From contig CAMCXK010000012.1 in assembly GCA_945883435.1 (NCBI GenBank), forward strand, positions 1 to 52,664: a stretch of DNA of 52,664 bases, in the 5' to 3' direction. The translations under genes and the position numbers were made by a program. The notes under the pieces were generated by a model that was not told where the DNA came from, made no database searches, and saw only the letters and a program-made list of their open reading frames with translations. The DNA is from Chthoniobacter flavus (GTDB taxonomy: Bacteria; Verrucomicrobiota; Verrucomicrobiia; Chthoniobacterales; Terrimicrobiaceae). Below, piece after piece: positions 10,369-50,500 of this stretch; within the stretch, counting starts at the first letter, position 1; each line of letters opens with the position of its first letter.

Positions 10369-11421
10369 TTACAAACGGGGCGACGCGGTTGTGGCGGCTT
10401 CGCGGATCTTGCTGCCGACCAGAATATGCTGCGGGGAGACGAATCGGCGGCGCATGAGGTCATGGAGGCGCTTGGCACCGGTGTAGCCGATCTCACGGTA
10501 GGGAATCACAGCTGTTGTGAGGGTGCGTGATTCGCCAAGCGGCTGCACGCCATCGAATCCGGTGACCGAGACATCCTGCGGAACGCGGATTCCGCGGGAT
10601 TCGAGTGCGGTGATGAGTTCGTAGGCTTGGTGGTCCGCGGCACACACCCAGGCGGTCACACCATCGGCGATGCGGCGGGCGACGTGGTCAAAGTCATTTC
10701 CGCTGGAAAAAAGATTGGGGAAAACATTCACGACATCGGCTTCGGGCACTTGGCGGCGCAAGCGCACCATTTTTTCCACGAAAGCGCTGTGGCGGCGCAG
10801 CGACCAGCCGGCCTCCACCTCGTATTCCTGGGTGTAGAAGCCGATGCGTTGGTGCCCGAGCGCAAGAAGATGGTCGACGATGCTCGAGATGCCGTTGAAG
10901 TGATCGACATCGACGCAATCCACCGGATCGAGGGCGTAATGCTCGACGAGAGAGACCACCGGAAACGCCTTGCGAAGTTCCTCAATGACCTTGGCTGGAA
11001 ACGGGTAGATCAAGAGACATCCTCCCCACTCGCGGCGGCGGATGGCTTGAATGGCTTGATACGAGGCGCCTTCGATCGACTTGTCCGCGGGATTCGCGTA
11101 GCGCAGGTCGATGTGCAGCTTGTGAACCTGGGCATATTCGCTGATGCCATTGTGGATCTCGATCCCGGGGCTTTGGAAGTCGCTGCGCAGATAGTGGACG
11201 AGGTGGGTGCAAACAATCACACCGATGGTCGATTTGGTGGCTGTGCGGCTGCGCCCTCCCGATCGCGACTCCAAGTGGCGGTAGCCGAGTTCGGCAGCCA
11301 CCCGGAAGACGGCGGCACGGGTTTCAGGGTTGATGCCGGGATGGTTTGTAAAGCAGCGGGAGACGGTGGCGCGCGAGATATTTGCGATTTCCGCGATGGT
11401 TTGTTGATTGACTTTTGGCAT
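10369..11421 (-). CDS. LacI-family transcriptional regulator
   Basis: A 350-residue LacI/GalR-type regulator. The N-terminal helix-turn-helix is intact (QQTIAEIANISRATVSRCF), followed by the hinge region and a periplasmic-binding-protein-like effector domain. A conserved block near the C-terminus reads DVSVTGFDG. The gene lies directly upstream of, and on the same strand as, the TPR-like/hydrolase/ABC transporter operon and most likely controls it in response to a sugar. The start is the ATG that opens MPKVNQQ; an upstream ATG at 11460 would add 13 unlikely residues. Confidence 0.93.
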   Translation of the reverse strand: MPKVNQQTIAEIANISRATVSRCFTNHPGINPETRAAVFRVAAELGYRHLESRSGGRSRTATKSTIGVIVCTHLVHYLRSDFQSPGIEIHNGISEYAQVHKLHIDLRYANPADKSIEGASYQAIQAIRRREWGGCLLIYPFPAKVIEELRKAFPVVSLVEHYALDPVDCVDVDHFNGISSIVDHLLALGHQRIGFYTQEYEVEAGWSLRRHSAFVEKMVRLRRQVPEADVVNVFPNLFSSGNDFDHVARRIADGVTAWVCAADHQAYELITALESRGIRVPQDVSVTGFDGVQPLGESRTLTTAVIPYREIGYTGAKRLHDLMRRRFVSPQHILVGSKIREAATTASPRL

Positions 11422-11488
11422 CCGTGGATTCCCGATGAAGTAAAAGAATTTGTTTATCACCGATCAAGCAGAGGCTGCAAGGGCGGAC

Positions 11489-13420
11489 CTAAGGATTGTC
11501 CGGGCAGAGAAGAAGGCTGAAATTGCACAAGGTAGGTCCATTTTCGATCCGGACGAGAATCTTGTTGAAGCCTTGGTTGAAGTGAACCTTGCGAAAGCCC
11601 TCGTCGAGTGACCAGGCTCCCAGGCCACGGTCTTCCCAGACCAGAAGCCCGTTGATCCAAACCTTCGCGGCGTCGTCGCTGGCGATGGCCAGAAGCATGT
11701 CTTGCGCCTCCTCGAAATGGACTTCGGTGAACCCGTAATATGTGGAGTCCCCGGATTCGTCCGGGGGAATGACCTTCATCGAGGATGCCTGGGTGAATTG
11801 CCAGCGGAGTTCGCGCGGAATGCCATCCTTGGGTTTGCCATCGGTGTAGGACTTGGAAAAATCGATTTCGAATTCCGGCGGATGGACATTCGCATAGTCG
11901 ATGCGGCCCTTGTTTTCCCAAGGACCAATGACATACCAGGTGTCGAGATAAAGCCATCCCGAGCGGCGGCTGGAGCGGCGGAATTTGCGTCCCGGCAGGG
12001 CCTCGGCTTGGATTTGACGGGTATTCAGAGTGTTGGGTTGGGTGCGCACGCTTGCCTCGGTGGATCCCCCGCCCTGCCCTTTGTTGCGCGCGCGGTCGCC
12101 ACCGATCTGACCTGCCCCTCCGCCTTTTTGCGCATTGCGGATTTCACCCATGGCCACCCCGCCGGAGCCTTGGGAGGCATTGTGGGATGGGCTTTGAGGT
12201 TGAGCGGAACCGGACGATCCGGAAGATGCTCCGCGCATGAGCACGCTCAAATCCACGATCTGCCCGCTCCGGCGCTCCATCGTGGCGGCAAGTTGAACGG
12301 CTTGACGGGAGGCCAGTGGACTTTGATTCGGATTTCCCGGGCGACCGGCGACCGCGTTCTCCGCATGCCGGGCCATGGCGGACGTTTGAGCCGAGGCTCC
12401 CGCGAGGCCATTGCGCAGACGGTCAAGATCACCCAGCGTCGACGGAGGAGGTGCGGTGGCCGAACTGGAATCCCAAGCCGGAGGAGGAGGTGGAGGCGCA
12501 TTGAGATTCCGGACAGCTTGCTCCACGGGTATCCCCTCCAAAAGCGCCAACTCCATGGCCCCGATCGCCTGCACCTGGGTGTCAACCGCCTTGGAGAGGG
12601 CTTCGGCACTGGCAAAGGCAGCCGGCAAATCAAGGGGATCTGTGGTGGACGGAAGATCGGCGGGAGCCAAGCCAGCCAGGGAATCAAGACCCTCGGCGTT
12701 GGCCCCCAGGATCAATCCCAGGGTTTTTTGAATTTCGAACAGCTTGCGAACCACAAGGTGGAATGCCAGGCCGTCTCCGAAAACCTTGTCGCGGGACTCG
12801 CCTTCAGGAAGAGCATCATATTCACGGATCAAGGCGAAAACCTCGTCCACGGTTTGGTCGGTTGTCGCTTTGATGCGACCTGCAGTGTCCTTGGGATTTT
12901 CCAGCAATCGTTCATTTTCAGCAGTCATGCCCTGTGCCACCGGCGGAAACACGGCGACCCGTCGGTCGGGGCAGGAAGTGTCAAGTGACTCAGCCCGGGC
13001 TTGGAATTCCAGAATCTGCCGACGCAGAATTGCTTGGAGCCTGGCAAACATGTCTTCCGGCGCGCGGGACTGGATTTGTTTTTCCAAGTTCTCGCGTTCC
13101 TGTGCGAGCGATTCCAGCGCAGTGCGAAGCTTGCGGACATCGCGCTGGACCGCTTTTTTCTGCTGATCGACGAGAGTGCGCTTGAGTTCACGGGCCTCCA
13201 TTTCGGGGATGCGGCGCGACTCGCGTTTCGCTTGCCGGTTTTGTTCACGGTCCTTGGCGCGCTGTTGGACTTCAGCAGCCTGCCTCTCCTGATCCCCGCG
13301 ATTCAGCTCCATACGGCTCACGGCAAGCGGAGCGAGCAATACTGCCGCGCCAAGCACAAGGATTTCCGCCGCGCAAATGGCCATCCACACAGGAATACGG
13401 TTTTTTCCAGGCGCCTTCAT
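11489..13420 (-). CDS. Membrane-anchored coiled-coil protein with C-terminal beta-sandwich domain, partner of ExbBD
   Basis: A 643-residue protein not matched to a named family. It has one N-terminal membrane segment (about 11-34) and a charged coiled coil (about 40-130). A long low-complexity region rich in Pro, Ser, Gly and Gln follows (about 320-480). A folded C-terminal domain (about 487-643) carries WYVIGPWENKG, FTEVHFEEAQDMLLAIASDD, KVWINGLLVW and GFNKILVRIEN. That C-terminal pattern resembles beta-sandwich sugar-binding-like domains found on PVC-group glycosidases. Its start overlaps the stop of the second ExbD gene as ATGA. The topology (anchor, long rod, folded tip) is like TolA or TonB, so it may be the force-transmitting partner of the channel. 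Confidence 0.7.
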   Translation of the reverse strand: MKAPGKNRIPVWMAICAAEILVLGAAVLLAPLAVSRMELNRGDQERQAAEVQQRAKDREQNRQAKRESRRIPEMEARELKRTLVDQQKKAVQRDVRKLRTALESLAQERENLEKQIQSRAPEDMFARLQAILRRQILEFQARAESLDTSCPDRRVAVFPPVAQGMTAENERLLENPKDTAGRIKATTDQTVDEVFALIREYDALPEGESRDKVFGDGLAFHLVVRKLFEIQKTLGLILGANAEGLDSLAGLAPADLPSTTDPLDLPAAFASAEALSKAVDTQVQAIGAMELALLEGIPVEQAVRNLNAPPPPPPAWDSSSATAPPPSTLGDLDRLRNGLAGASAQTSAMARHAENAVAGRPGNPNQSPLASRQAVQLAATMERRSGQIVDLSVLMRGASSGSSGSAQPQSPSHNASQGSGGVAMGEIRNAQKGGGAGQIGGDRARNKGQGGGSTEASVRTQPNTLNTRQIQAEALPGRKFRRSSRRSGWLYLDTWYVIGPWENKGRIDYANVHPPEFEIDFSKSYTDGKPKDGIPRELRWQFTQASSMKVIPPDESGDSTYYGFTEVHFEEAQDMLLAIASDDAAKVWINGLLVWEDRGLGAWSLDEGFRKVHFNQGFNKILVRIENGPTLCNFSLLLCPDNP

Positions 13421-13842
13421 CGCTTGTTGTAGTGCTCGTCGTAGGTTCGGATCACCACATCGGCGAGATCATTGAACTGACACAAATCCACGATCTCCAC
13501 CACACTCCGCAGCGGGGCCTTCGCATCCGTGTCGATGCGGATTTGCCAATTCGGGTTTTCAAGCCCCAGCGCCCGCAACTCGCGGTGCAGAGCCATGATG
13601 TTGGTCTCCTCGCCATTCAGAAAAAAACGGCCGTCCGGGGAGATTCCGATCACCGACTGGTCGTTCGAGGGAACACGCTTCTCCGCCGATTCCGATACCG
13701 GCAGGTTGATATCGATGTCGCGGTTCAACTTCTTCAGCATCGTTGAGACCAAAAAGAAGATGAGCAGCAAAAAGACACAATCGATCAGCGGAGCCATCGA
13801 CATCTCGGTTTCGTCCTCGGGATCTCTGGATCTCCGGCTCAC
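13417..13842 (-). CDS. ExbD/TolR-family protein (second copy)
   Basis: A 141-residue ExbD/TolR protein. Its single membrane helix carries the conserved aspartate (APLIDCVFLLLIFFLVSTM), followed by a periplasmic domain (about 60-141). It is thought to form, with ExbB/TolQ, a proton channel that drives work across the envelope. The start is a GTG at 13842 that overlaps the stop of the first ExbD gene (GTGA); the frame extends upstream to 13896 but only within that gene. The aspartate and surrounding helix are nearly identical to the first copy, while the periplasmic parts differ, suggesting an old duplication with split roles. Confidence 0.9.
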   Translation of the reverse strand: MSRRSRDPEDETEMSMAPLIDCVFLLLIFFLVSTMLKKLNRDIDINLPVSESAEKRVPSNDQSVIGISPDGRFFLNGEETNIMALHRELRALGLENPNWQIRIDTDAKAPLRSVVEIVDLCQFNDLADVVIRTYDEHYNKR

Positions 13843-14300
13843 AAGGCTCGCTGGCGTGTGCGCACACCCACATTCTCGAATCCCTGGATGCGGCACACGT
13901 CCACCAGGTCGATCGCCTTCTGAAATTCCAAGTCCCGGTCGGCATCCAACCGCAGCGGGCGTTTCCGGACTTCCGTCCCGCCCGCATCCACAAGGGATTT
14001 GAGGTGGACTGAAAGACTCTCCACCGGCTCGTAAAAAAGCTCCCCGTCCGCATCCCGCCGCCCTTCAACCGCACGAAAAACTCCCCCGTTGCGATCCACC
14101 CCGATCACAATCGTGTCATCGCGAACCTGCCCTGAAATCTGGGAGGTCATGTCCGGCAACCGGACGGGGATCAACTTTTCCTTCCGCTTGATCATGGTGG
14201 TCACAAGAAAAAAGATCAGGAGCAGAAAGACGCAATCGATCAGGGGGGAGAGATCGACCCCGGACTCCTCGCGCCATCCATGCCTGTTGCGGCGGGCCAT
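13839..14300 (-). CDS. ExbD/TolR-family protein (first copy)
   Basis: A 153-residue ExbD/TolR protein with an N-terminal basic segment, one membrane helix with the essential aspartate (SPLIDCVFLLLIFFLVTTM) and a periplasmic domain. The start is ATG at 14300, 5 nt after the stop of the proton-channel gene; an upstream ATG at 14405 would lie inside that gene. Compared with the second copy, its periplasmic domain has an extra acidic loop (VEGRRDADGELFYE). Two ExbD genes with one ExbB are known in several bacterial groups, but the fourth gene of this operon is unusual. Confidence 0.9.
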   Translation of the reverse strand: MARRNRHGWREESGVDLSPLIDCVFLLLIFFLVTTMIKRKEKLIPVRLPDMTSQISGQVRDDTIVIGVDRNGGVFRAVEGRRDADGELFYEPVESLSVHLKSLVDAGGTEVRKRPLRLDADRDLEFQKAIDLVDVCRIQGFENVGVRTRQRAL

Positions 14301-14305
14301 GTTGC

Positions 14306-14977
14306 TCAGGAGGGAATGAACCAGCGGTTGACCAGTTTCTCGACCTCCTCCTCGACCCGCTCGGATATCCGCGTCGTCTGGAAGCGGTTCCAGTGGTAAA
14401 CGCACAAGGCAAAGATCGCAATGATCAGCCCCAGCGCGGTGGTGATGAGCGCCTTCGAAATCGATCCAGCCAGCATCGAGGCCCCGCCTTCGTCGCCGTA
14501 GACCTCCACGAGTTTGAACGACTCGATCATTCCGATCATGGTTCCCAGAAGGCCCAGCAAGGGCGCCAAGGCGGCGATCACAGCCAGAAAGTTGTTGATT
14601 TGGTTTTCCATTCTCATCCGTCTTGAAACCATTTCAAACGCTCCTTCAACGATCAGATCCGCCGAACCGCCAAAGTGCGCGACCATGTGCCGGACCACAT
14701 CCGCCAGAAGACAATTCCCCGACGCCTCCGAACGCAGGACATCCCAATCTCCGGATTGCCCGGCCTTCCGCAGGGCCTCAAGAATTTGAGGGGAGACAAA
14801 CCGGGATGGACGCAAGTGAATCCACCGCTCCACGATCAGCGCAATCGCCGCCATGAATAGAGCCATCAGCGCAACAGACGTCAGTCCTCCGTTCACCACC
14901 TCTTGCAACCAATCCACTTGGGCTGTGACCACGTTACCACCGGCCGCTTGCGCCACTATTGGTAAAAAATCGCTCAT
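14306..14977 (-). CDS. MotA/TolQ/ExbB proton channel protein
   Basis: A 223-residue inner-membrane protein of the TolQ/ExbB family. A hydrophobic helix lies near residues 30-50, and the conserved family block is LAPLLGLLGTMIGMIESF. A third helix (SKALITTALGLIIAIFALCVY) follows, with a short charged cytoplasmic tail. It should form the pentameric stator around the ExbD helices and use the proton gradient. It is the first gene of the four-gene envelope operon. Its start is divergent from the LacI regulator at 15088, with 110 bp between them. Confidence 0.93.
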   Translation of the reverse strand: MSDFLPIVAQAAGGNVVTAQVDWLQEVVNGGLTSVALMALFMAAIALIVERWIHLRPSRFVSPQILEALRKAGQSGDWDVLRSEASGNCLLADVVRHMVAHFGGSADLIVEGAFEMVSRRMRMENQINNFLAVIAALAPLLGLLGTMIGMIESFKLVEVYGDEGGASMLAGSISKALITTALGLIIAIFALCVYHWNRFQTTRISERVEEEVEKLVNRWFIPS

Positions 14978-36011: not shown

Positions 36012-39000
36012 TCAATGCCAGAGCCAGTCTTCAGGAATCGGCTGTTTTGCAAGGCCGGGGCCGGAGAGGAGGAGTTCGGGTTTGTCGCCGCGCCAAACAG
36101 CTTGTCCACCACTGGAGACCCACATGTTACTGCCGCGTTGGTCGACGTAGAACATCCGGATCGGATACAGGCCTTTTTTGAGGGGCACCGACCAGCCGCC
36201 GAAATTGTGCCAGCGCGTGGCGGGATACCATTCCTCCCCGCCAAGCCAGAGGCGCAGGTCGAAGCCGGCGTCGCGCACGGGAGTGATCAGTTCCCATGGG
36301 GCATGGAAGGTGTAGACGCCGTCCTGAGGAATTTTAATAAAGCCGGTCTTATCATAGGCGAATGACTTATTGGATGATCTGTAAGGCAGCTCCAAGGGCG
36401 ATTTGACGACCCCAGATTGGCTTGCGGCAGGGAGGTGTGTCATCTGGCCGCCAAGGGAGGCGTCGCCTTCATGATAGGTAAATTGAAGCCCCGGCTGGAC
36501 GGTTTTTTCTGCCACGGGTTTGAGAGGCGTGGTTTTGACGTATTGAGCGCGGAGAGGGGCCGAGACCTCGGTGCCGCTGGAAGTGTGGGGCATTTTTTGC
36601 AGGCCTTTTCGGAAAGCGGCGGCTTTCACCGTGGTGCTGGCTTTGAGCACCACCGGCTTTTCATAGACGGATGAATCGAGGCTCGGTTGGCTGCCGTCGA
36701 GCGTGTAGCGGATTTCCGTATCCGGCTCGTTGTGGCGCATGGTGATTTCCAGCGAATCCACAAAGCGGTCGGCCTCGGGGAGGATTTCCACACGATCCAT
36801 CGGACGGTGGATGGGTTGCAAGGCGGTCAGCTTTTTTCCCTCCAGCGCAAATTCCACATCGGCAGACGGCAGCATTTGCGGGGCCCCGTCGAGGGTGAGA
36901 TTTTGACATCCCAACGCCACGCCGTAGAGGGTGCCATCGGGTCGTTTGACCAAGATCAAGGCCTCACCTACGGCTCTGAGGGAGCCTGCCGTCAAGGCAC
37001 CGCCCTTTGAGGGATCGGTGCTGGCTTGGCAGAGGATGGTGGTGCCATCGGGCGTCATGGCTTGAAATCCAGAGACCCCATTATTTCCAGGAAGGGTCTC
37101 GATGGATTTCAACTCGTCCTTGATGGTCTTTCTTGGAAAAAGAGCGCTGATGACCATCTGTGGCCCCTGGCCTTCGAACCCGGCCCCGAATTGGGACATC
37201 TTCAACTCCGCAGGGCTGTGCATGAAGATCGAGATGTTCGGGGTGTTGGGATTGGAGGTTTTGACCGATTTGTCGGCGTCATTGCCCGTGACTTGGTGTG
37301 AGCGGAAACCCTCCCATTTCACGCCCTCGCGTTCGAAGGGTTGGGCGGGCTTCCAATCGAGTTGGTAGGTGTGGGAGTTGGCGGAATGCACACGATCGAC
37401 AACGATCCAAAGCCCGACGCCGCGAAGGAAGACCAACTGACGGTCATGGGTGACGCCCTCCACGAGGCGTGAACCGTCCACGGCCGCGAAGGTGCCGTTG
37501 AAACGGCCCTCGGCGATATTGAACCGATCGGACTCGTGCCAGCGGCTTTTGATCGGCGTCTGGTAGGCCATGTTGCTGTTGTTTTTTCCAAAGACCCCGT
37601 TTTGGCGGGAGCGGTATTCCAGCGGTTGCTTCTCAAAGGCTTCGTGTCCCATTTGAGGGAGGCCATCGACGAACAGCGGCGTGAACTCCCATTGGAACAA
37701 ACCGCGCATGTCAGGGTTGTTGTATTTTGCCCGGGTCTTTTCCTGGAATTCCCGCACCCATGGCCACAAGTCGCCTGCGTGCCCAGAGCGGTCGTAGCCG
37801 TAGGTGTCAGAGTGGAGGGAGAGGAGGGCTTGCCCGAAGGCGAAAAGCTGGATGTCGTTCGTGTGCTTCCATCCGTGCGTGTTGTAGGGACGGCCCCCGT
37901 CCATGTGCAGATGCTGGTCATCTTTTCCCCAGCCCTCGCGAATGACCATACGGCCACTGTAGGGCCAATACTCGGAGGTAAAATCCGGCGCTCCGCAGGC
38001 ACCATCCTCCCACAGGGTAGTGCGGATTTTTTTCAACACCGGATCGTTGAGCGCCTCGGGCGAGTATTCCGCGAACTGCGGCGACGGGCCGGCGTAGTAG
38101 CCTGCCATGCGGGTGCGGTTCATGTGGTTGGGATACCACTCCATGCCGAGATTGCCTTTGCGACGGATGAGATAGCCGGTGCGCATGGCGAGGTTGTCTT
38201 TCAACTCCAAACGCCAATCGAGGCCCATCCACGGCTGGCTGCCGGGCTGCCGTTTGAAGACATCCAGCATGTGGTGAACGCTCCGGAGGTAGCAGTGGTT
38301 GTAGCCCTCCGCGTTCTCGATGTCGCTTCCATCGGGCATCATTGTCACCGTCGGATAGGCCTCGATCACGCGCCGCACCTCACGGAGATAGTAGGGTGAT
38401 CCTTTGAACTCCGGCAGGCTCACGGCGAAGGCTTGAAGAGGATTGAGGTATTGCTCGATCGAGCGGTTGTTGCTGGCGGAGCGGACTGTGCGAAGCATCG
38501 CCGGGAACACATCAAAGGTGTCCATGAGGATTCGCGCCAGCGTGGTCGAAGGAAAATCGCGCGCCATCGAGGGGTCTCGCTGCGCCATCCACATCAGGTT
38601 ATTCAAAACCCTAGCGCGTGGCTCCAGAGGATTGAGCTCGCCTGCGGAAAGCCCCGCCACTTCGAGGTCGCGAGAGAAATTCAGCGCGCGGTCGTCAAAA
38701 TACTCGCACCACTTGCGGGTCCACGCGGGATCACCTGTGCGGACGGCTTCGGCAAGGAGGGCCTTGTGGAAAACGACTCGCTTCGAGCTGTCGGCAACAA
38801 AGTTCTGTGCGTCGGGAAAAATCAGCGAGTCCTGGGGAACGAACCCCTTCGGCTGCCAGAGCCAGTTTACTCGCCCAGGCGGGCCCATATCGATACGGAC
38901 CACGGCATTTTTTCCTTTGTCATCCACCATCGGAAAGCGGGCCACACCGGAATTCTTCAATTCCTCCGCTTGATGAAGGAACTGGATGAAATAACTCTCT

Positions 39001-39449
39001 TCCGGTGAGACTGGGCGAAATTCAAATCCCGGGGGCGGGCTGATGAATCGTGTGAAGAAAAAGTCGCGGTAGGCATCGAGGGCCTCGGCCCATTTTTCCT
39101 GACGAACCAACTCGGCAATGGTTGGCCGGGGCGAAGATTTGCGACCTCGGAAATCCGGATGTTTTTCATCACGGCCCATGGAATCCAAAGCCGAATTTTT
39201 GGGCGGTGCGGGAATTTTCGAGAGATCGATCTGGGCGAAGAATTCTTTGGCGAGAGGAATGGTGTTTTCGGGCGAATTCCGCTCGGCAAAGGCTTTTTCA
39301 CGCGTCGCCACATCCGGAGGTGCTGGTGCCACAAAGACCTCGGTTTCGTAGTCGGGGTTCCAAAAACTGAGCCTGGCCGAGCCAGCGTGGAGATTTGGAA
39401 CCAAGGTGGCCAGAACGATGGCCAGGCAGGCGGGAAGTCGTTTCATCAT
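36012..39449 (-). CDS. Secreted heparinase II/III-like polysaccharide lyase (second of pair)
   Basis: A 1145-residue secreted protein with a signal peptide (about residues 1-22). The N-terminal part (about 95-450) is an alpha-toroid of the heparinase II/III or alginate lyase type, with SDIENAEGYNHCYLRSVHHM near residue 383. The lyase beta-domain opens at Met501 (MVIREGWGKDDQHLHMDGG). A chitobiase C-terminal-like module lies at about 885-945 (EIRYTLDGSQPSLDSSVY) and a PA14-like module at about 985-1145. It starts 1 nt after the stop of a longer paralogue (TGACATG). The substrate is probably an acidic or uronate-containing polysaccharide; this is inference. Confidence 0.8.
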   Translation of the reverse strand: MMKRLPACLAIVLATLVPNLHAGSARLSFWNPDYETEVFVAPAPPDVATREKAFAERNSPENTIPLAKEFFAQIDLSKIPAPPKNSALDSMGRDEKHPDFRGRKSSPRPTIAELVRQEKWAEALDAYRDFFFTRFISPPPGFEFRPVSPEESYFIQFLHQAEELKNSGVARFPMVDDKGKNAVVRIDMGPPGRVNWLWQPKGFVPQDSLIFPDAQNFVADSSKRVVFHKALLAEAVRTGDPAWTRKWCEYFDDRALNFSRDLEVAGLSAGELNPLEPRARVLNNLMWMAQRDPSMARDFPSTTLARILMDTFDVFPAMLRTVRSASNNRSIEQYLNPLQAFAVSLPEFKGSPYYLREVRRVIEAYPTVTMMPDGSDIENAEGYNHCYLRSVHHMLDVFKRQPGSQPWMGLDWRLELKDNLAMRTGYLIRRKGNLGMEWYPNHMNRTRMAGYYAGPSPQFAEYSPEALNDPVLKKIRTTLWEDGACGAPDFTSEYWPYSGRMVIREGWGKDDQHLHMDGGRPYNTHGWKHTNDIQLFAFGQALLSLHSDTYGYDRSGHAGDLWPWVREFQEKTRAKYNNPDMRGLFQWEFTPLFVDGLPQMGHEAFEKQPLEYRSRQNGVFGKNNSNMAYQTPIKSRWHESDRFNIAEGRFNGTFAAVDGSRLVEGVTHDRQLVFLRGVGLWIVVDRVHSANSHTYQLDWKPAQPFEREGVKWEGFRSHQVTGNDADKSVKTSNPNTPNISIFMHSPAELKMSQFGAGFEGQGPQMVISALFPRKTIKDELKSIETLPGNNGVSGFQAMTPDGTTILCQASTDPSKGGALTAGSLRAVGEALILVKRPDGTLYGVALGCQNLTLDGAPQMLPSADVEFALEGKKLTALQPIHRPMDRVEILPEADRFVDSLEITMRHNEPDTEIRYTLDGSQPSLDSSVYEKPVVLKASTTVKAAAFRKGLQKMPHTSSGTEVSAPLRAQYVKTTPLKPVAEKTVQPGLQFTYHEGDASLGGQMTHLPAASQSGVVKSPLELPYRSSNKSFAYDKTGFIKIPQDGVYTFHAPWELITPVRDAGFDLRLWLGGEEWYPATRWHNFGGWSVPLKKGLYPIRMFYVDQRGSNMWVSSGGQAVWRGDKPELLLSGPGLAKQPIPEDWLWH

Positions 39450-39450
39450 G

Positions 39451-42400
39451 TCAAGGAATGGAGGCTTCGGCTTTGTGGAAGAACCATTCCTTGGGAATGC
39501 GCTCCTCGCTCAAGCCGGGTCCAGAGACAAGGATCGGGCTGGGGTCGCCTTGATACACCACCCACGGGAGCGGATAGTTTCTCCAGAGATCGGATTTGCG
39601 CCACGGGGTCGTGCGGGCATCGGCGAAGTCCACTTGGAAGCGATGCAGCCCCTTGGCCAGAGGCACCGACCAAGTTCCACGCCCGTGCCACCATTCAGTG
39701 GGTTCCCATTCCTCGCCGTTGAGAAAAAGCCGCAGATCGTAGCTCGCCGCCGACTCGGGATAGACCACTTCTTTCGGAGCCCGGAAGGTGTAGACGCCAT
39801 CGGCGGGGATTTCGATGTAGCCCTTGAAGCGGGCCCCGTAGTAGGTGTCCTCGCGTTTCACTTGGGTCAAATCCATCTCCCGCTTGGCGGTTGAGGTTTT
39901 CACTGCTGGCAGCCAATGGGCGGCGCTGTAGAGTTCGCTCCAATGCCCCTCGAGATGCTCGCAGAGCAGGCCTGGAACGAGCGTCGCCTTGTCGAGATTG
40001 GCAGCAGGCTGCAGGGGTTTTTTATAAAACCAGCCGTAGCTTGTTTCAGTGAATTTCGTGCCATTGATCTCAAACGAATCCGCGGGCAGCGGCTTTCCAT
40101 CGCGTCCCAGACGGTAGGCGCGCGCGGCGAACTCTGTTGATTCGGTGATGGTGATTGGGTGCGTGTAGAGAGTCGAATCGGGCGTGGGCTGCGTTCCGTC
40201 GGTCGTGTAGCGGATTTCAACGCCCGGAGTGGCGCAGGTGAGCTCCACCTTCAACTCATCGATAAAAGTATTGAGATCGGGCTGGAATCGAACGGTGGAA
40301 ATCGGGCGATGGATTTCCTTCATGGCAACCTGCCCGTTCGCATTCACCACAAATTCAAAATCGACAATCCCCGGGCTCGCAGACCTCTCCTCGAGTTTCA
40401 GCAGCCGCCACATGGCACCGAGGAATCCGGCATTATCAGGTTTCTGCTTCAGCGGCTTCCCGCTGTATTCCATCGAGGAAACACCCAGAGCCAGGCCGGA
40501 GATCGCCCCATCGGCACGCTTTTCCACAAGCAGCGACTCGGCATTCGCCCGCACCGGGCCGCAAGCGAGGCTTGCTGTTGCGGCCGCACATTGAAACCAC
40601 ACGGTGCCGCCATTCTTCATCTGCGCCTCGAATCCCGCCACTGCAGGACCGGCATTCATCGGCGTCACACTCGCAACAGCCTCCTCGCCATGTGGTGGAC
40701 TGGAGGAAACAAGCGTCACCAGCGCGGTGTCGCCTGTCGTTTTCCAGCGGGAGGCGATCTCCTGCTTGGCGATTCCGAAGTTTGGCAATGCCCACAGGTG
40801 CGCGCGAACATCCGGCTCACTTGTCTTGGGCGCCGTGTATTCGACAGCGAAATCCCCGAACTGGCGGAGGATCACATTCGCCCCGTCGGGGTTTTTAGTG
40901 GCGACTGTTTTAGCCGGGGCATCGATGGTCGACTGCTCCTTGGAGAATGGAGCGGAGGCTCCCGTCTTCGCCGTCGAGAGCATGAGCGTGAGCGGCACCT
41001 CAAAGGCCGCTTCCTTCGGCACGGCATCCTTGAAGTGGATCGTGTCGGCGAACACGAACAGGCGGGCATCACGGATTTGAAACACCTGGCGATTGCTTCG
41101 GACATTATCGATCTTGGGACCGAAGACCGGTTCCCGGCCATACAGGAGCTTCCAGGAATTCAGGGAGACATTTTGATAAATGCCCTCAAAAACCGCCTCG
41201 CCGAAATCAAAGCGGTCGGAGGAGTGCCAGCGATTCGGAGCCGGTTCCCGCTCCGCGTAGCAAATGTTGCTGGTTTTTCCACCGGGCATGAACCCCGTGT
41301 AGTTATCGCCCATGACATTCTGGCGTGTGCCGTTGATCAGCGGCGTCTCGGCGCGGAACATAGGAAAATTGTAATCGAACCCATAGACGAGGCCGTGGGA
41401 CCACGAAGGCTGCTCAGCATGTCCCCCACCCTTTGACCGGCGAGCGAACATCGACAGGAATGCGTCGCCCTCCTTCCATCCGCTGCGGAAGAGGTAGGAG
41501 CCCGTGTAGGGCATCCAATCCGAATTAATCTTCGGAGCGCCGGATCGCTCGTTGCCCAGCAGCTTCATGGCTTCCTCGCGATTCTTGATTTTCTCGGCCA
41601 ATTGTTGCCGCTCGTGAACGGGCGCCTTCGGATCGACCTCTGGCAGTCCCTCGGAAACCGAAAAAACCGTGTCGATGATCCGTCGCACCTCGGGAATGGC
41701 GTGGGTGGTGGCGGAGCGGTCGAGGTGGAGCGAAGGGCTCATGCCATCGCGCGAAGATTCCTCTTGGGCGTTTCCGTAAAACCGCGAGGGCCGCAGGCGG
41801 TATTCGAAGCGGTGGTCGTAACCGCCCGGCATCGGATGGCGGAACAAATATTGAATGGTGGTGTCGTAGGAATCCAGGAAGCGGTTACGCCAACCGGGCG
41901 TGAGCCACTCGGGATTCTGCTGCGACCAGAGGTTGACCACTCCACCGAGCACAAGCGGGATGTAGAAATGCCCCTCGTCTCCCATTTCCACCATGGATCC
42001 GTCGGCTTGCGTGCCCAGCGTCATCCAGCGCTCGAAATGCCGTCGGCATTCGCGGGCCAGTCGGGTCGCCGGGCGGAATTCGTCGATATAGGGCAGCGTG
42101 CACGCCCAGCGCTGGAGTCCACTGGTGTTGTGATTGAAGATCGTCTCCCGTGCCAGGCGCCAATAGGCCGGCGGGTATTCCTTGAGGCAGGCCAATTGCA
42201 TCCTCGCAAGTGTCGTGGCGGGGATTTGCTCGATCGCTTGAGGATATCGCACGGCGAGATCGGAGAGATCCTCCATGAGATCGGCCCAGCGGTCGCCGGG
42301 GTGCATCACAAAGAGATTTTTCACCGTGTATTCGGAGGCGTTGGCATCGCGGAAAAAATTCATCGACCAGTCGTCCATGATGTTCGACCAAGCCTGGAGA

Positions 42401-43497
42401 TACTTCGGATCTCCCGTCTCGTTGAACCGCGCCAGCAGTCCCTCTCCGAAGGTTCCAACAAAAGCCAGACTCTCCGTCTCCTCGACCAATTGCTTCTGCT
42501 TGGCATCATCCAGCCTCGCCCCCTCCGGGATATCCACCCATAGAATTTGACCCGGGGTGAACTTGCTGGCCCGCGAAGCGTCTTTCGAGAGCTTGAGGCC
42601 TTGGAGCAAATCATCCCCCTCTCCGCTGTAGCGACTGTTGATCCGGCCCGCAAAGGGCGTGAGATGGGTTTTCACCCGCGCCATTTTTTCAAAGAAGAAC
42701 TGCTTCCAAGCTTCGAGCGCTTCGCTATCGCGCCCCTCCGCGTGCAAGCGCCTCGCCTCGGCCAACCCCTCGACGCCGGGTTCCAGAAGATTGAAAAATT
42801 CTTTTGCCAACGCCTTGACCGCCTCGGGGGAATTTCGCTCCTCGAAGCGTTTCATCCGCTCGCTGGAATCCAACGGGCGTTTTTCCTCTGCGACCTCGAC
42901 CATCCAATCGATCGGGACGCGAATCGGGTGCTTAGCCTCGGCCACCTCGCCAACCATCGGGGCTGGCGGACTGTCCTTCGAGGGAAGAAACTCAAACAAA
43001 CCACCGGGAAATTTCTTTTCGTCGTAGTAATTCCACCGCGCGGCCCAGATCACGCGCCGCTTCGCATCCAAGAGTGAGACAACACGATGTCCAGTATCCT
43101 GATACTCCCGGTAAGGGTAGCGGGATCCGTAGAGAAGAATCTTCTCCACCGGAACATCCTGCCCGAAATTCAGTTCCATCCATGCTCCCGGCCCGTTGGA
43201 CTCGGTGACGCTGCCTCGCATTGTCGCATCTTTTCGGCCATCCGAGTAGTGCGACCCCACCGCGAAGGGAGTTTTTGCCTCTTTGGATGACCCCGAAAAG
43301 AACCCCGGACGCTTTAGCACAAGATTCTCGCCCTCACTCATCACCTCGATCTCTTGCCATCCCATGATTGGCGATGTGGGAGCATCCACCCTGAGGTAGT
43401 GCGCTGAGATGCCGGACGAATCACCGTCATCGGCAATGACCGGACAAATGAATGCAATACTCACTGCCAGTATTGTTTTTATGATTTTTGAACACAT
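39451..43497 (-). CDS. Secreted heparinase II/III-like polysaccharide lyase with N-terminal binding domain (first of pair)
   Basis: A 1348-residue secreted protein. After a signal peptide (about 1-22) a discoidin/F5-8C-like binding domain covers about 25-190 (MELNFGQDVPVEKILLYGSR). A helical toroid follows, then the lyase beta-domain near residue 667 (SYLFRSGWKEGDAFLSMFA), a chitobiase C-terminal-like module near 1096 (EIRYTTDGTQPTPDSTLY) and a PA14-like C-terminal module. The last 250 residues closely parallel those of the next gene, so the pair arose by duplication. The ATG at 43497 begins the signal peptide. An AraC regulator lies immediately upstream on the same strand. Confidence 0.78.
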   Translation of the reverse strand: MCSKIIKTILAVSIAFICPVIADDGDSSGISAHYLRVDAPTSPIMGWQEIEVMSEGENLVLKRPGFFSGSSKEAKTPFAVGSHYSDGRKDATMRGSVTESNGPGAWMELNFGQDVPVEKILLYGSRYPYREYQDTGHRVVSLLDAKRRVIWAARWNYYDEKKFPGGLFEFLPSKDSPPAPMVGEVAEAKHPIRVPIDWMVEVAEEKRPLDSSERMKRFEERNSPEAVKALAKEFFNLLEPGVEGLAEARRLHAEGRDSEALEAWKQFFFEKMARVKTHLTPFAGRINSRYSGEGDDLLQGLKLSKDASRASKFTPGQILWVDIPEGARLDDAKQKQLVEETESLAFVGTFGEGLLARFNETGDPKYLQAWSNIMDDWSMNFFRDANASEYTVKNLFVMHPGDRWADLMEDLSDLAVRYPQAIEQIPATTLARMQLACLKEYPPAYWRLARETIFNHNTSGLQRWACTLPYIDEFRPATRLARECRRHFERWMTLGTQADGSMVEMGDEGHFYIPLVLGGVVNLWSQQNPEWLTPGWRNRFLDSYDTTIQYLFRHPMPGGYDHRFEYRLRPSRFYGNAQEESSRDGMSPSLHLDRSATTHAIPEVRRIIDTVFSVSEGLPEVDPKAPVHERQQLAEKIKNREEAMKLLGNERSGAPKINSDWMPYTGSYLFRSGWKEGDAFLSMFARRSKGGGHAEQPSWSHGLVYGFDYNFPMFRAETPLINGTRQNVMGDNYTGFMPGGKTSNICYAEREPAPNRWHSSDRFDFGEAVFEGIYQNVSLNSWKLLYGREPVFGPKIDNVRSNRQVFQIRDARLFVFADTIHFKDAVPKEAAFEVPLTLMLSTAKTGASAPFSKEQSTIDAPAKTVATKNPDGANVILRQFGDFAVEYTAPKTSEPDVRAHLWALPNFGIAKQEIASRWKTTGDTALVTLVSSSPPHGEEAVASVTPMNAGPAVAGFEAQMKNGGTVWFQCAAATASLACGPVRANAESLLVEKRADGAISGLALGVSSMEYSGKPLKQKPDNAGFLGAMWRLLKLEERSASPGIVDFEFVVNANGQVAMKEIHRPISTVRFQPDLNTFIDELKVELTCATPGVEIRYTTDGTQPTPDSTLYTHPITITESTEFAARAYRLGRDGKPLPADSFEINGTKFTETSYGWFYKKPLQPAANLDKATLVPGLLCEHLEGHWSELYSAAHWLPAVKTSTAKREMDLTQVKREDTYYGARFKGYIEIPADGVYTFRAPKEVVYPESAASYDLRLFLNGEEWEPTEWWHGRGTWSVPLAKGLHRFQVDFADARTTPWRKSDLWRNYPLPWVVYQGDPSPILVSGPGLSEERIPKEWFFHKAEASIP

Positions 43498-43567
43498 GAG
43501 AAGTGAACCTTCAAATCGGGAGGTTGATGCCAAAAGGAGGCGGGAACATCAGGCAACTATGGCGACC

Positions 43568-45809: not shown

Positions 45810-47516
45810 TTACGGAACTGCGGGCGATCCACTGCCGGGGATGAATTTTTCCATTTGCACGACGAGACGGCGAGCGTAGGCGGCTTTGTCGGGAGGGTGG
45901 TTGTCGGTCTTCAATCCATCGTAGGGCACCATGGCGGTGTTCGGGAGGGCGGCCATGACCTCTTGGAGACCCGCAGGGAGCATTTTTTTGTCGATGTAGA
46001 TGAAGGGGAGCTCGCTGTCGTTCCAGGAGGCACGCCACTCTTGAACAAGTGCAGGCAGGAGCGCGGTTTGATCGACTCCGGCCATGCCGGTGCCTGCTTC
46101 GCCTTGATCCCAGACGATGCCTCGGATGGCGAAGGGCGGAACGGGTTGGATGCGGGCCGCGAAATTCGCTCCAAGGTATTCCCGCCGTTGCGTGGCGGGC
46201 TCGAACTCGCCGGGAAAGCATCCCGGAGGGGTGGGTGGCTGCGGAGCCTTGGGCGCACGGGTTCCCTCGGCCTTGGCTTTGGCGGAGGTCTCCTCCCACG
46301 CTTTCACGGCTGCGGAGTGCCCGGTCACGAGCTTCGGGTAGATGTTTTTGGAGTAATCCGCCAGTTGGGCTTGGATGGCGGGATCACTCTCGATGGCGTC
46401 GCGGCTGAGCCAGATACACGAGGGGGAGGAACTTTCGCAACGAATCACGATGCCGATGGGCACACCGAGTTTTTGGTGAAGAAGAACGGCGGCCGAGGAG
46501 AGGAGCGCGGGGGCGTCGAGGCAGTTTTCCTTGGTCAAAATCGTCCAGGCCGCATTTTGGGAGTGATCGCGCGTGAGGGCGGAGAAGCGAATGGCATGGT
46601 TCGCCCCGGCTTCCAAGAGCTGGCGGGTATCCTCGTCGCACTCGACTTTGAGTTCGTTGTTTTTGCGGAGGTTGTAGGAAACCTCCATGTTCGATTGGCC
46701 CGACCCGAACCACACCTCGCCGATGAGGATATCGTCGAAGGCAATGGTTTTTTTGTCGTCGGTGATTTCCAAGCGATGCGGCCCGCCCGCCTCCATGGGC
46801 TCGAGGTCAACGCGCCAGCGCCCGGCAGCATCGGCCTGAGCCTCACGCACCTGTCCATTGAATGACACTTTCACCGACGCCCCTGGAATGGCTCGGCCCC
46901 AGATGGGAACGCTCCGCTGGCGCTGGAGCACCATGTGGTTGCTGAAGACGATCGGCATAGCCAATTCCTTTGGCGGAATCCCGGGCTTTCGCTTGGCGAT
47001 CTCTGCGCGAACTGCAGGTAGCAACATTGAGGCACCCGACTCGGGACGCAGAAAAATTGAATGCGCGGAGAGATAGACATTTTCACCGGAAGGCAGATTG
47101 GAAAGGCGCAGGGTGTGCTTTCCGGCCTTCAGATCGAGGGAACCCGCTTCGATCAAGGCCACACTGTTCCTTGTGCCAGGCATGAAGCCCTTCAGCACTT
47201 GATCATCGACCCGGATCTCAAACGGATTTCCACTCCGACCGTGGGAGGCTTCGAGCGTAACGTGATAGCGTCCGGCCGCTGGCGCTGTGAACGTCCACTC
47301 CAATGCCCCGTCCGATGGCATAACCGGAGCCAATGCAGGAGCCACGGAGAAGCCGTCCCCATCTAGAAGCGCGAGCTGACGGGCGGGGAATTTTTTGTCT
47401 CCTTGAACAATCACCGCCGCACCGGGACCGAGAAGCTGGGCTTCGATCGATGCAAGGACGCGCGGGGTGTAAAAAGAACCTATCGCAAGGAGGAGCAGGG
47501 AAATTTTGAAAGGCAT
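45810..47516 (-). CDS. Secreted sialate O-acetylesterase-like SGNH hydrolase
   Basis: A 568-residue secreted carbohydrate esterase. A signal peptide (about 1-22) is followed by a beta-sandwich domain (about 24-155, with WTFTAPAAGRYHVTLEAS). The SGNH esterase part of the sialate 9-O-acetylesterase type starts near residue 185 (MVLQRQRSVPIWGRA). The nucleophile is Ser275 in GSGQSNMEVSY and the C-terminal catalytic pair lies in KTDNHPPDKAAYARRL. It probably removes acetyl groups from a glycan. The ATG at 47516 lies inside the end of the upstream giant gene, a 37-nt overlap in another frame. It converges on the oxidoreductase gene. Confidence 0.88.
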   Translation of the reverse strand: MPFKISLLLLAIGSFYTPRVLASIEAQLLGPGAAVIVQGDKKFPARQLALLDGDGFSVAPALAPVMPSDGALEWTFTAPAAGRYHVTLEASHGRSGNPFEIRVDDQVLKGFMPGTRNSVALIEAGSLDLKAGKHTLRLSNLPSGENVYLSAHSIFLRPESGASMLLPAVRAEIAKRKPGIPPKELAMPIVFSNHMVLQRQRSVPIWGRAIPGASVKVSFNGQVREAQADAAGRWRVDLEPMEAGGPHRLEITDDKKTIAFDDILIGEVWFGSGQSNMEVSYNLRKNNELKVECDEDTRQLLEAGANHAIRFSALTRDHSQNAAWTILTKENCLDAPALLSSAAVLLHQKLGVPIGIVIRCESSSPSCIWLSRDAIESDPAIQAQLADYSKNIYPKLVTGHSAAVKAWEETSAKAKAEGTRAPKAPQPPTPPGCFPGEFEPATQRREYLGANFAARIQPVPPFAIRGIVWDQGEAGTGMAGVDQTALLPALVQEWRASWNDSELPFIYIDKKMLPAGLQEVMAALPNTAMVPYDGLKTDNHPPDKAAYARRLVVQMEKFIPGSGSPAVP

Positions 47517-50500
47517 CGCTTGGCTGGACGGTTTTTAAGTAGCAAGGCGCCTCCCAAAAGCAGAAGACCGGTGCACCAAACACTGGGTTCGGGAACAGCA
47601 ATAATCTGGTTGGCATAAAGTCCCCCGTCGATTTGATGGGCCGTGGAGAGAAATCCAGAGCCAAATCCACTGTAGAAGCTGATGTTGGCCAAGGTTCCAC
47701 CGGAGATGGCTCCATTGACATAAATACGGTCGTTGCCAGCACCGGGATTGCCGGACCAAAGCGAGTTTCCGTCCCAGTTATAAAAGCGCAAATTGTATCC
47801 CGCGAGGTTCAGAGTCGCGATTTCGAGGAAGACGCTGTTATTGGTGCCAAGGTCGATAATCGAGTCCGCCGCGAGCGTGAGCGTCCCGATTGAGGAATTG
47901 TAGTTCCCGCTGAAGGAAAGTCCGGCGGCGCTTGTTCCCGTCGCCAGCGTCAGGTTGCCTGTCGAATTCAAAGAGGCGTTTGCGGATACCAAGAGCGACC
48001 CTCCACTGTTTATAAAGATATTCGGCGAGGAACCGAGGGCTCCTTGGGCCGCCAACGAGAGAGTTCCAGAATTGACGCTGGTATTCCCGGTGAACGAATT
48101 GCTGCCGGAGAGCGTCACGGTGCCTGAGGTCGATTTGGTGAGCGTGGCGTTGCCCCCCAGACGGGCTGAGACGGTGCCGTTTTGCAGGGCAAAGCCGTTG
48201 GGGGCGTTCACGCTCAGCAGACCGGTGGTTCCTGCGATAGTGCCGCTGGAGAGCGTAAGCCCGGAGGTGGTTTGGCTGTTCGACCCGATGCTCAGGGTTC
48301 CACCGCTTACGCTGATTGTGCCGTTGGCATTGAGCGAGTTGGTGGCTCCAGCCAAGACCAGCGTGCCGCTTTGAACAGTGGTTGTTCCCAAATAGAGGGA
48401 CGAATTGAGGGCTCCGAGAGTAACTGTGCCATTGCCGGCAACAACTACACCTCCAGTTCCGAGGTTCATATTACGCGGAATCACGATGTTCCCATTTCCT
48501 GTTAAGGTCACCGATGCATTAACAGCGCCGTCGCGCGTGATGGATGAGGATCCAGAGCCCTCTATCGTCAATGTGCCCGAGTCGCTTTGGATGGTTGTAG
48601 AACCCATCAGTGTGATGAACTGGGAGACGCTGTTATTTCCCGAGAGGTTGCGCAGGGCTCCGTTGCCTCCGATTCCAGTTCCATTCAGAGTTAAGGCTTC
48701 CGGTCCGATCGAGTTGTTTCCAGTAAACGCAAACTCCAAACTGGCACCGCTGGCAACCACGGTGCCGGCGGCGGTGCTGCCGAGTCCCGAAGCGTTGGAA
48801 ATGCGAAGGTTGCCCGCCGACACCGTCGTCAGGCCCGTGTAGGCATTGCTTCCCGAGAGCAGAAGTTGGCCGGAGCCTGTTTTGGTGAGGGTGGAGCCGG
48901 CTCCGCCGAACCCACTGGCAAACTCCACCGAGTTGGCCCCGGTGTTGATTTGAATGGTCTGGCTGGAGGCGCTTCCGAGCCGTGCGGATAGATCGGTCGA
49001 AATGCCGCTTCCATAAACCAGAGTTCCACCGGTGAAGGAAATCGTTCCTCCCGATCCAAGGGCGCTGGAGCTGTCCATCTGGACGGTTCCAGCGGAAAGT
49101 GTCACGATGCCGTTGAAAGAATTGTTACCCGAAAGAACGAGAGTGCCGCTGCCGGATTGAACAACCGCTCCGCTTCCACTGATCACGTTGGAGACAGAAA
49201 TCGAGTTCGAGCGATTGAAAACCAAGGTGCCATTGTTGGTGACGGAGGCCGAGCCGAGGTCTCCTGAGGTTCCAGCCGAGCCGACCCGCAGCGTTCCACT
49301 TTGAATCGAAACCGACCCTGAGAGGGTATTGTTGGAGGTGAGCAGCAAGGTCCCGGGGCCTGTCACCGCGAGGCCCCCGTTTCCAGACACAGCATTGGAA
49401 AGGGTGAGGTTGCCCGAGCCTCCCATAGCGAAGGTTCCTGCGGCGTCGATCGCCCCGGCGAAGGTCACGCTGCCCGACTCGGCGACTGTGAGCGTTTGCC
49501 CAGAAGCCACAGAGACTTGGCCGCCCGTCGATCCACCGCCTTGGAGCGAGCCAATGGTTTCCGAGCCGAGAACCGAGAACTCCACCCCAGCCGTGTTCGC
49601 CAAAGTCACGGTTCCTGTGGTTGAAAGCGCACTCCCGCCGCTCACAGCGAGGGTGCCGCTATTAACGAACAATCCGCCGGAGAAGGTGTTGGTTCCAGCA
49701 AGAGTTGCCGATCCCGAGCCGGACTTAGCCAGCGTGCCGGCGCCCGCGATATTTCCCGAAACCGTGATGGCGTGAGATCCCGAATCAAGAACCAGTGTGC
49801 CGGAGGAGAGGGTCAGCGAGCGGTTCGCATTGAGCGAAATGCCGTCTGTCCCCGCCAGAAGTGATGTGGAATTTCCAGCGCCTGCGCTGACGCTGATGGC
49901 CCCCGAAGTGGCCCCAAGCGCGGCATCGCTGTGGATGGTCAAGGTGCCGGCTGAAAGGGTGGTTCCCCCGCCGTAGGAGTTGGAGCCTCCCAGAACGAGC
50001 GTGCCGCCGCCGGCTTTGTTGAGGCCCGCATTGGCTCCGGCCAGCGTAGCGTTGATCGTGGTGGTGCCGGAGGCTGCGGAAATATTGAAAGCCGCGAAGC
50101 TACTCGAGTTGGCTGTGAGCGTGTTTCCAGCTTGGATCGTGACGCCGTTCGGATCCGAGATCGAAACGGTCTTCACCGTGAGATCACCTCCGAGTGTGGT
50201 GGTCAGGTTGGAGGATCCATTCGCCGAAAAGTAAACATCCGAGGAATCTCCCGGCGGGTTGGCCAACGGGGTCGTGCCTGCGGCATTGCTGGTCCAGTTG
50301 CTGACACCGCCGGAGGTTTCGCTCCAGTTCCCGCTGAGATTGCCCTTCCAGTAGGCATCGGTGGCGCTGGCGGCGGCTGTCAACGTGAGTGCCGTGGCAT
50401 TCGAGGAAAGAGAAAACGAAAAGCCGGATTGCACCACCCCGGTAAAGGAGTCGCTGAGATTCCACGTGCCGCCGAGTCCGCTGGCGGCGCTCAGGAGTGT

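Follow-up and report, generated by a model that had tools for sequence, protein, structure and literature searches.

A candidate proton-driven force transducer with a jelly-roll tip, encoded beside ExbB and ExbD in Chthoniobacter flavus and in several other bacterial phyla

We analysed a 52,664-nt stretch of DNA from Chthoniobacter flavus (hereafter the window), which forms contig 12 of a genome of 2.84 Mb that gave 12 matches to ExbD, and in it a four-gene operon for a putative proton motor and an associated protein of 643 amino acids, here called P643. Coordinates are positions in the window, and all four genes are on the minus strand. The first gene (14306..14977) encodes an ExbB/TolQ-type proton channel subunit of 223 amino acids, which matched the MotA_ExbB domain in Pfam (PF01618; E-value 1.8e-22, 79.9 bits against a cut-off of 22.9). 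It is followed by the genes for ExbD1 (13839..14300; 153 amino acids) and ExbD2 (13417..13842, with a GTG start at 13842; 141 amino acids), both of which matched the ExbD domain (PF02472; E-values 1.4e-20 and 1.8e-26, 74.1 and 93.2 bits, cut-off 25.4), and by an intact open reading frame for P643 (11489..13420), the proposed force transducer. The genes for ExbB and ExbD1 are separated by 5 nt, those for ExbD1 and ExbD2 overlap at a GTGA, and those for ExbD2 and P643 at an ATGA. An earlier reading of the same DNA, here called the original prediction, had described a tight ExbB-ExbD-ExbD-P643 operon, and all three junctions were confirmed when re-read.

The residues of the proton path are intact, namely T148 and T181 in ExbB and the pore aspartate D25 in both ExbD proteins (E. 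coli numbering), and they were likewise kept across the family of relatives described below. ExbD1 is orthologous to the ExbD1 proteins of other two-ExbD systems. Both ExbD proteins were closer to their counterparts in planctomycete and Bacteroides systems than to each other (58% and 65% to those of locus L163, versus 34% to 37%), with a value of 67% between ExbD2 and its counterpart in the planctomycete locus L162, which indicates that they represent old, distinct lineages. The axle of the motor in the class to which the window belongs is probably a mixed one, composed of one ExbD1 and one ExbD2.

No Pfam or NCBIfam family matched P643 above the cut-off. A model of the full-length protein (ma3cea014e796; mean predicted local distance difference test score, pLDDT, 80.9) agreed with the layout expected from the sequence, that is a transmembrane helix, long helices, a stretch of low confidence and a C-terminus of β-strands. 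The membrane anchor helix covers residues 11 to 33 (13322..13390; hydropathy 2.39) and contains I-C-A-A-E at the site where relatives have S-x3-H. It is followed by a helical, coiled-coil-like rod at residues 41 to 249 (12674..13300; pLDDT mostly 80 to 96), a helical hairpin at residues 264 to 305 (12506..12631; near residues 265 to 295 in the model), a disordered Gly/Ser-rich linker at residues 402 to 461 (12038..12217; pLDDT below 50) and a jelly-roll tip at residues 481 to 643 (11492..11980), which appeared in the full-length model as an all-β domain at about residues 490 to 640. The hairpin is a conserved motif, detected by a custom hidden Markov model with an E-value of 2.5e-8 in the window and in 95 of 100 family proteins, and in all of the 52 proteins measured except two, the tip ended no more than about 14 residues from the C-terminus. 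In eight loci, the transducer was split into two genes with 4-nt overlaps, the first for an anchored helical protein with S-x3-H and the second for a protein with a signal-like N-terminus that carries the hairpin and the tip. The split shows that the rod and the tip are separable modules, and it places the tip outside the cytoplasm, either in the periplasm or further out.

The tip was also modelled separately (me7d98704e9a2; pLDDT 94.7), which yielded 11 strands and no helices. The best structural matches were the N-terminal sugar-binding domains of GH2 enzymes (VIA Z 11 to 12, root mean square deviation 2.6 to 3.6 over 124 to 137 residues, 10% to 17% identity), and PA14 carbohydrate-binding domains were also among the Foldseek matches, which confirmed the glycosidase-type β-sandwich that had been proposed. 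At the sequence level, the tip had no significant match in the PDB, and neither a GH2 sugar-binding domain nor a catalytic TIM barrel was found in P643 with Pfam. The tip shares with the GH2 and PA14 domains a jelly-roll fold over about 130 residues but has no catalytic domain and always ends an anchored or secreted rod protein. The predicted fold likens the tip to a sugar-binding domain, although a shared fold is no proof of function.

A TonB or TolA domain at the C-terminus had been named beforehand as a result that would speak against a separate envelope machine of this kind. TonB_C and TonB_2 did not match P643 at E-values up to 1, nor 7 of its relatives at 0.01, and the same profiles detected the TonB proteins encoded elsewhere in the genome. 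The TolA family model did not match P643 either, and neither a TonB nor a TolA fold was among the structural matches listed for the tip, an absence that is no proof. A tolA_full match in one of the split loci was rejected, since it reached 21.6 bits against a cut-off of 59.45 and was placed in helical sequence.

Relatives of the tip were collected in two sets, which have some genomes in common. Profile searches by class and phylum (strong matches with E-values of about 1e-20 to 1e-68) gave 50 loci with flanks, including the window and locus L032, and 164 relatives turned up when 84,980 species genomes were scanned, from which we took the 80 best. The tip was found in Verrucomicrobiota, Planctomycetota, Lentisphaerota, Kiritimatiellota, and Bacteroidota, the last with Bacteroides finegoldii, B. 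faecis, B. acidifaciens, Paraprevotella, Sphingobacterium, and Salegentibacter, as well as in single records from KSB1 and Armatimonadota (Capsulimonadaceae). ExbB and ExbD were encoded on the same strand within a few genes of the tip in 44 of the 50 loci in the first set and 70 of the 80 in the second; four of the exceptions abut a contig start, and the others include short fragments and a group of three copies that lack motor genes. After removal of duplicates, about 90 distinct loci or members contained a tip protein beside ExbB and ExbD, a recurrence that makes the arrangement more than chance. The gene order was ExbB-ExbD-ExbD-tip in 45 cases and ExbB-ExbD-tip in 33, while a few loci had tandem tips, a tip between ExbB and ExbD, or the tip first. 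Up to four copies were found per genome. The survey hence upheld the expectation that the operon genes stay together, and this across phyla, with the amendment that there may be one or two ExbD genes and that the transducer is sometimes split. The distances between ExbB proteins were correlated with those between tips (Mantel r 0.80, 0 of 2000 permutations, host relatedness not removed), and by this measure of sequence the two evolve together.

Several unusual arrangements were observed. Two tip proteins are encoded in tandem behind a single ExbB-ExbD pair in L129 (4023-9695) and L158 (3884-9783), and the order was ExbD-tip-ExbB-ExbD in two other loci. Five contigs of one metagenome-assembled genome (MAG; Planctomycetota isolate GH22) contained no more than the latter half of the tip (query residues 76 to 160, 66% to 71% identical); these half-tips lie in short frames and may be decayed copies, fragments or something else. 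Six loci encoded secreted HEAT-like proteins of about 370 amino acids with a divergent form of the tip domain at their end (family f6), and in several of these a PQQ-propeller protein adjoins the HEAT-like protein, another unnamed pair. The HEAT-like matches were set aside as a different use of the tip domain rather than members of the machine.

Statements about the rest of the genome from which the window is derived rest on family searches. The RNase R encoded in the window was 65% to 70% identical to that of most searched congeners and the GC content of the operon (0.587) is near that of the window (0.597), by which contamination of the contig was ruled out. The tip was found in none of the 15 congeners searched. 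When 213 genomes of the order were searched, strong matches were confined to the window genome, G025 and G019, in the last of which the copy is broken. In G025, an ExbB-ExbD-P472 operon is located amid a cluster of carbohydrate genes, with a GH3-type gene 12 nt after the operon. The copy in G019 (L031, 4359-6070) is a tip homolog broken over two reading frames, without anchor or motor genes, and represents a relic or an assembly error. The nearest tip was found in a Planctomycetota MAG, with 67% over 162 columns; the corresponding values were 51% for ExbB, 47% for ExbD1, 67% for ExbD2, and 35% for the whole transducer. The operon was likely acquired horizontally, and the branches that bear on the donor are unstarred.

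Elsewhere, the window genome encodes three TonB_C proteins, one TonB-dependent receptor plug domain and a further cluster (L023, on contig C26) with genes for a TPR protein, ExbB, two ExbD proteins, and an anchored protein truncated where the contig ends. The operon would therefore be an additional machine and not a replacement for the Ton system. The original prediction had noted no TonB, TolA, TolB or Pal at the locus, which holds for the operon but not, in the case of TonB, for the genome. The tolB and pal genes were absent from the operon, next to which lie genes for LacI regulators and sugar-related functions; no genome-wide search for TolB or Pal was made.

TonB and TolA dock to their motors via the anchor motif Ser-3x-His-6x-Leu-3x-Ser (PMC12905483; PMC12204202), the Ser and His of which have been seen by cryo-EM to touch a conserved Ser on the first transmembrane helix of ExbB or TolQ (PMC12905483). 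In E. coli, S-x3-H reads SVCIH in TonB and SAVLH in TolA. We counted the motif in the systems with a clear anchor and ExbB, using ExbD helices as a control. The S-x3-H pattern was present in the anchor in 36 of 36 one-ExbD systems, 7 of 48 two-ExbD systems, and none of 175 control helices; Leu was the commonest residue at His+7 (27/45), and Ser at His+11 was rare. Of the 43 systems with the motif, 42 have the serine corresponding to Ser34 in E. coli ExbB, versus 5 of the 42 without the motif; within the two-ExbD systems the figures are 7 of 7 versus 4 of 41. Deep two-ExbD branches still hold both features. The window, with I-C-A-A-E in the anchor and Phe in the Ser34 column of ExbB, has neither, and the two-ExbD class to which it belongs has lost both. 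In three loci no motor genes were found in the flanks examined and S-x3-H has been lost; these loci are nested among motif-bearing relatives and apparently encode uncoupled transducers. On the tree, the motif changes 4 to 5 times and the number of ExbD genes 2 to 4 times. The patterns are strong, but with so few changes the association between the two is not statistically independent and neither an independent-contrast test nor a sign test has power, and it was rejected as independent evidence for co-evolution.

We put the probability at roughly three in four that the product of the operon is a force transducer that spans the periplasm and is driven by protons, like TonB-ExbBD and TolA-TolQR but with a tip of its own. 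The separate energised envelope machine of anchor, rod and tip that had originally been postulated is thereby sustained, on the strength of the linkage across phyla and the distinct tip. Also in its favour are the joint evolution of ExbB and tip, the S-x3-H and Ser34 patterns, the loss of the motif in the copies with no motor gene nearby, the C-terminal position of the tip, the split transducers and the intact proton path. ExbB and the two ExbD proteins, for which homology was shown, would form a motor of the 5:2 type, beside which the N-terminal helix of P643 would be anchored. The rod and the flexible linker would cross the periplasm, so that the tip faces a partner at the cell wall or the outer membrane, and proton flow would pull on or release this partner. 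Several points weigh against this interpretation. The interaction with the motor and the dependence on the proton motive force are deduced from linkage, the motif and Ser34, of which the association between motif and ExbD number counts for less as noted above; the docking site used by TonB and TolA is least assured for the window itself, which has neither the motif nor the serine; and the ligand of the tip is a candidate only.

The best reading is that of an apparently undescribed, recurring machine that adds a class to the known proton-driven force transducers. Of the routes by which energy from the inner membrane reaches the outer membrane, those of TonB and TolA are the two that are well studied, and a third, with a vWA (von Willebrand A) tip and a function not known, was proposed in 2025 for PVC bacteria (Williams-Jones et al. 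2025; PMC12204202). In the open-access papers we found descriptions of TonB-, TolA- and vWA-tipped transducers only and none of the present tip, and its novelty is provisional. The vWA transducers likewise have a tolQ-like gene and often two tolR-like genes followed by an anchored transducer, many have the SHLS motif, and they occur in Planctomycetes, Verrucomicrobia, and Bacteroidetes. They differ in the TPR gene before the motor and in the tip. The vWA domain is an α/β fold, unlike the helix-free jelly roll of P643. It is the L023 cluster that has the TPR-ExbB-ExbD-ExbD-anchor layout of the vWA transducers. With TonB-ExbB-ExbD the system shares the motor, an N-terminal anchor with S-x3-H (in the one-ExbD class), an extended middle part and a C-terminal tip, but it has no TonB_C domain, one or two ExbD proteins, a helical rod and no TonB-dependent receptor conserved nearby. 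With TolA-TolQR it shares the helical rod and the anchor, in which TolA has S-x3-H; it lacks TolA domain III, TolB and Pal in the operon and is patchy in occurrence.

What the tip acts on is a separate question, on which the machine claim does not depend, and no gene for a partner is present within the operon. As a first, tentative guess, the partner may be a polysaccharide, or else a protein that takes part in the uptake or processing of polysaccharides; the tip would bind a glycan, or an outer-membrane component loaded with one, whose entry or release would be driven by the motor, a possibility we rate somewhat below even odds. It is consistent with the fold of the tip, with the single TonB-dependent receptor plug domain in the genome, and with the neighbouring genes, which in the window encode GH2-like, GH31-type, and GH66-like enzymes, a sugar ABC transporter, and two LacI regulators. 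The GH3-type gene in G025 and the presence of GH43 among 7 of 84 neighbours in the species-genome set point in the same direction. On the other hand, random control genes from verrucomicrobial genomes also gave sulfatases, CBM96, and GH127, and carbohydrate genes were not clearly enriched over random genes of the same genomes in a weak comparison of the 25 commonest Pfam families. No outer-membrane channel, TonB-dependent receptor or secretion genes were conserved beside the operon. The largest cluster of neighbours (12 loci) was discarded as an artefact of open reading frame picking, since it consisted of antisense frames of the motor genes.

A little less probable is a Tol-like machine for envelope maintenance, in which the tip takes hold of peptidoglycan or of a protein in the cell wall or outer membrane, with its fold a mere scaffold. 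In GH2 enzymes, domains of this type are often structural. The operon stands alone and has no fixed neighbour apart from the split rod gene; LacI-type, sulfatase, and hybrid-sensor genes recur in only 4 to 8 loci, and the multiple copies per genome need not be substrate-specific. Such a function is at odds with the patchy occurrence within the order, unlike that of a housekeeping system, and with the LacI-type, two-component-hybrid, and glycosidase genes that adjoin several copies.

For the two-ExbD class of the window, it is also conceivable, at rather long odds, that P643 is not docked at the side of the motor but is for example an assembly or regulatory partner of it. While 41 of the 48 two-ExbD systems lack S-x3-H and most lack Ser34 in ExbB, they match the motif-bearing class in operon, anchor, hairpin, and tip, and the deep branches that keep both features also speak against this explanation. 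A secretion or gliding motor comparable to GldLM, which represents another family of 5:2 motors and has a part that spans the periplasm (PMC12905483), is very improbable, since GldM is itself the axle with periplasmic domains of its own, whereas ExbD and the transducer are separate here, and no secretion genes are conserved nearby.

If the force-transducer interpretation is correct, the operon is a testable candidate in the question of how Planctomycetes take up large polysaccharides, which they do without the polysaccharide utilization loci and SusCD machinery of Bacteroidota (PMC12323593). A bolder version, which we consider unlikely as a whole, is a widespread and as yet undescribed class that pulls on glycans or glycan-carrying partners via a glycosidase-derived tip, as a stand-in in Planctomycetota and Verrucomicrobiota for polysaccharide uptake of the SusCD/TonB type, with a mixed ExbD axle and, in the class of the window, a re-made interface. 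That the docking motif and the ExbB serine were lost in parallel would offer a natural experiment on the coupling of a transducer to a 5:2 motor, and the conserved ExbD1/ExbD2 pair would do the same for mixed axles. The occurrence in several phyla includes the three Bacteroides species named above, which are culturable gut bacteria.

A gene for a LacI-family regulator (10369..11460, minus strand; PF13377, E-value 3.2e-24; PF00356, 6e-9) starts 28 nt 3′ of the P643 gene on the same strand, and a second LacI-type gene is located upstream of the operon and points away from it. The regulator is considered to lie outside the machine but may take part in regulating it. Further away, the window contains two adjacent genes for large proteins of 1145 and 1360 amino acids with Fn3_assoc and CHB_HEX_C_1 domains (36012-43533), as well as a gene for an autotransporter-like surface protein of 1705 amino acids with passenger-associated PATR repeats (47480-52597; E-value 1.5e-41).

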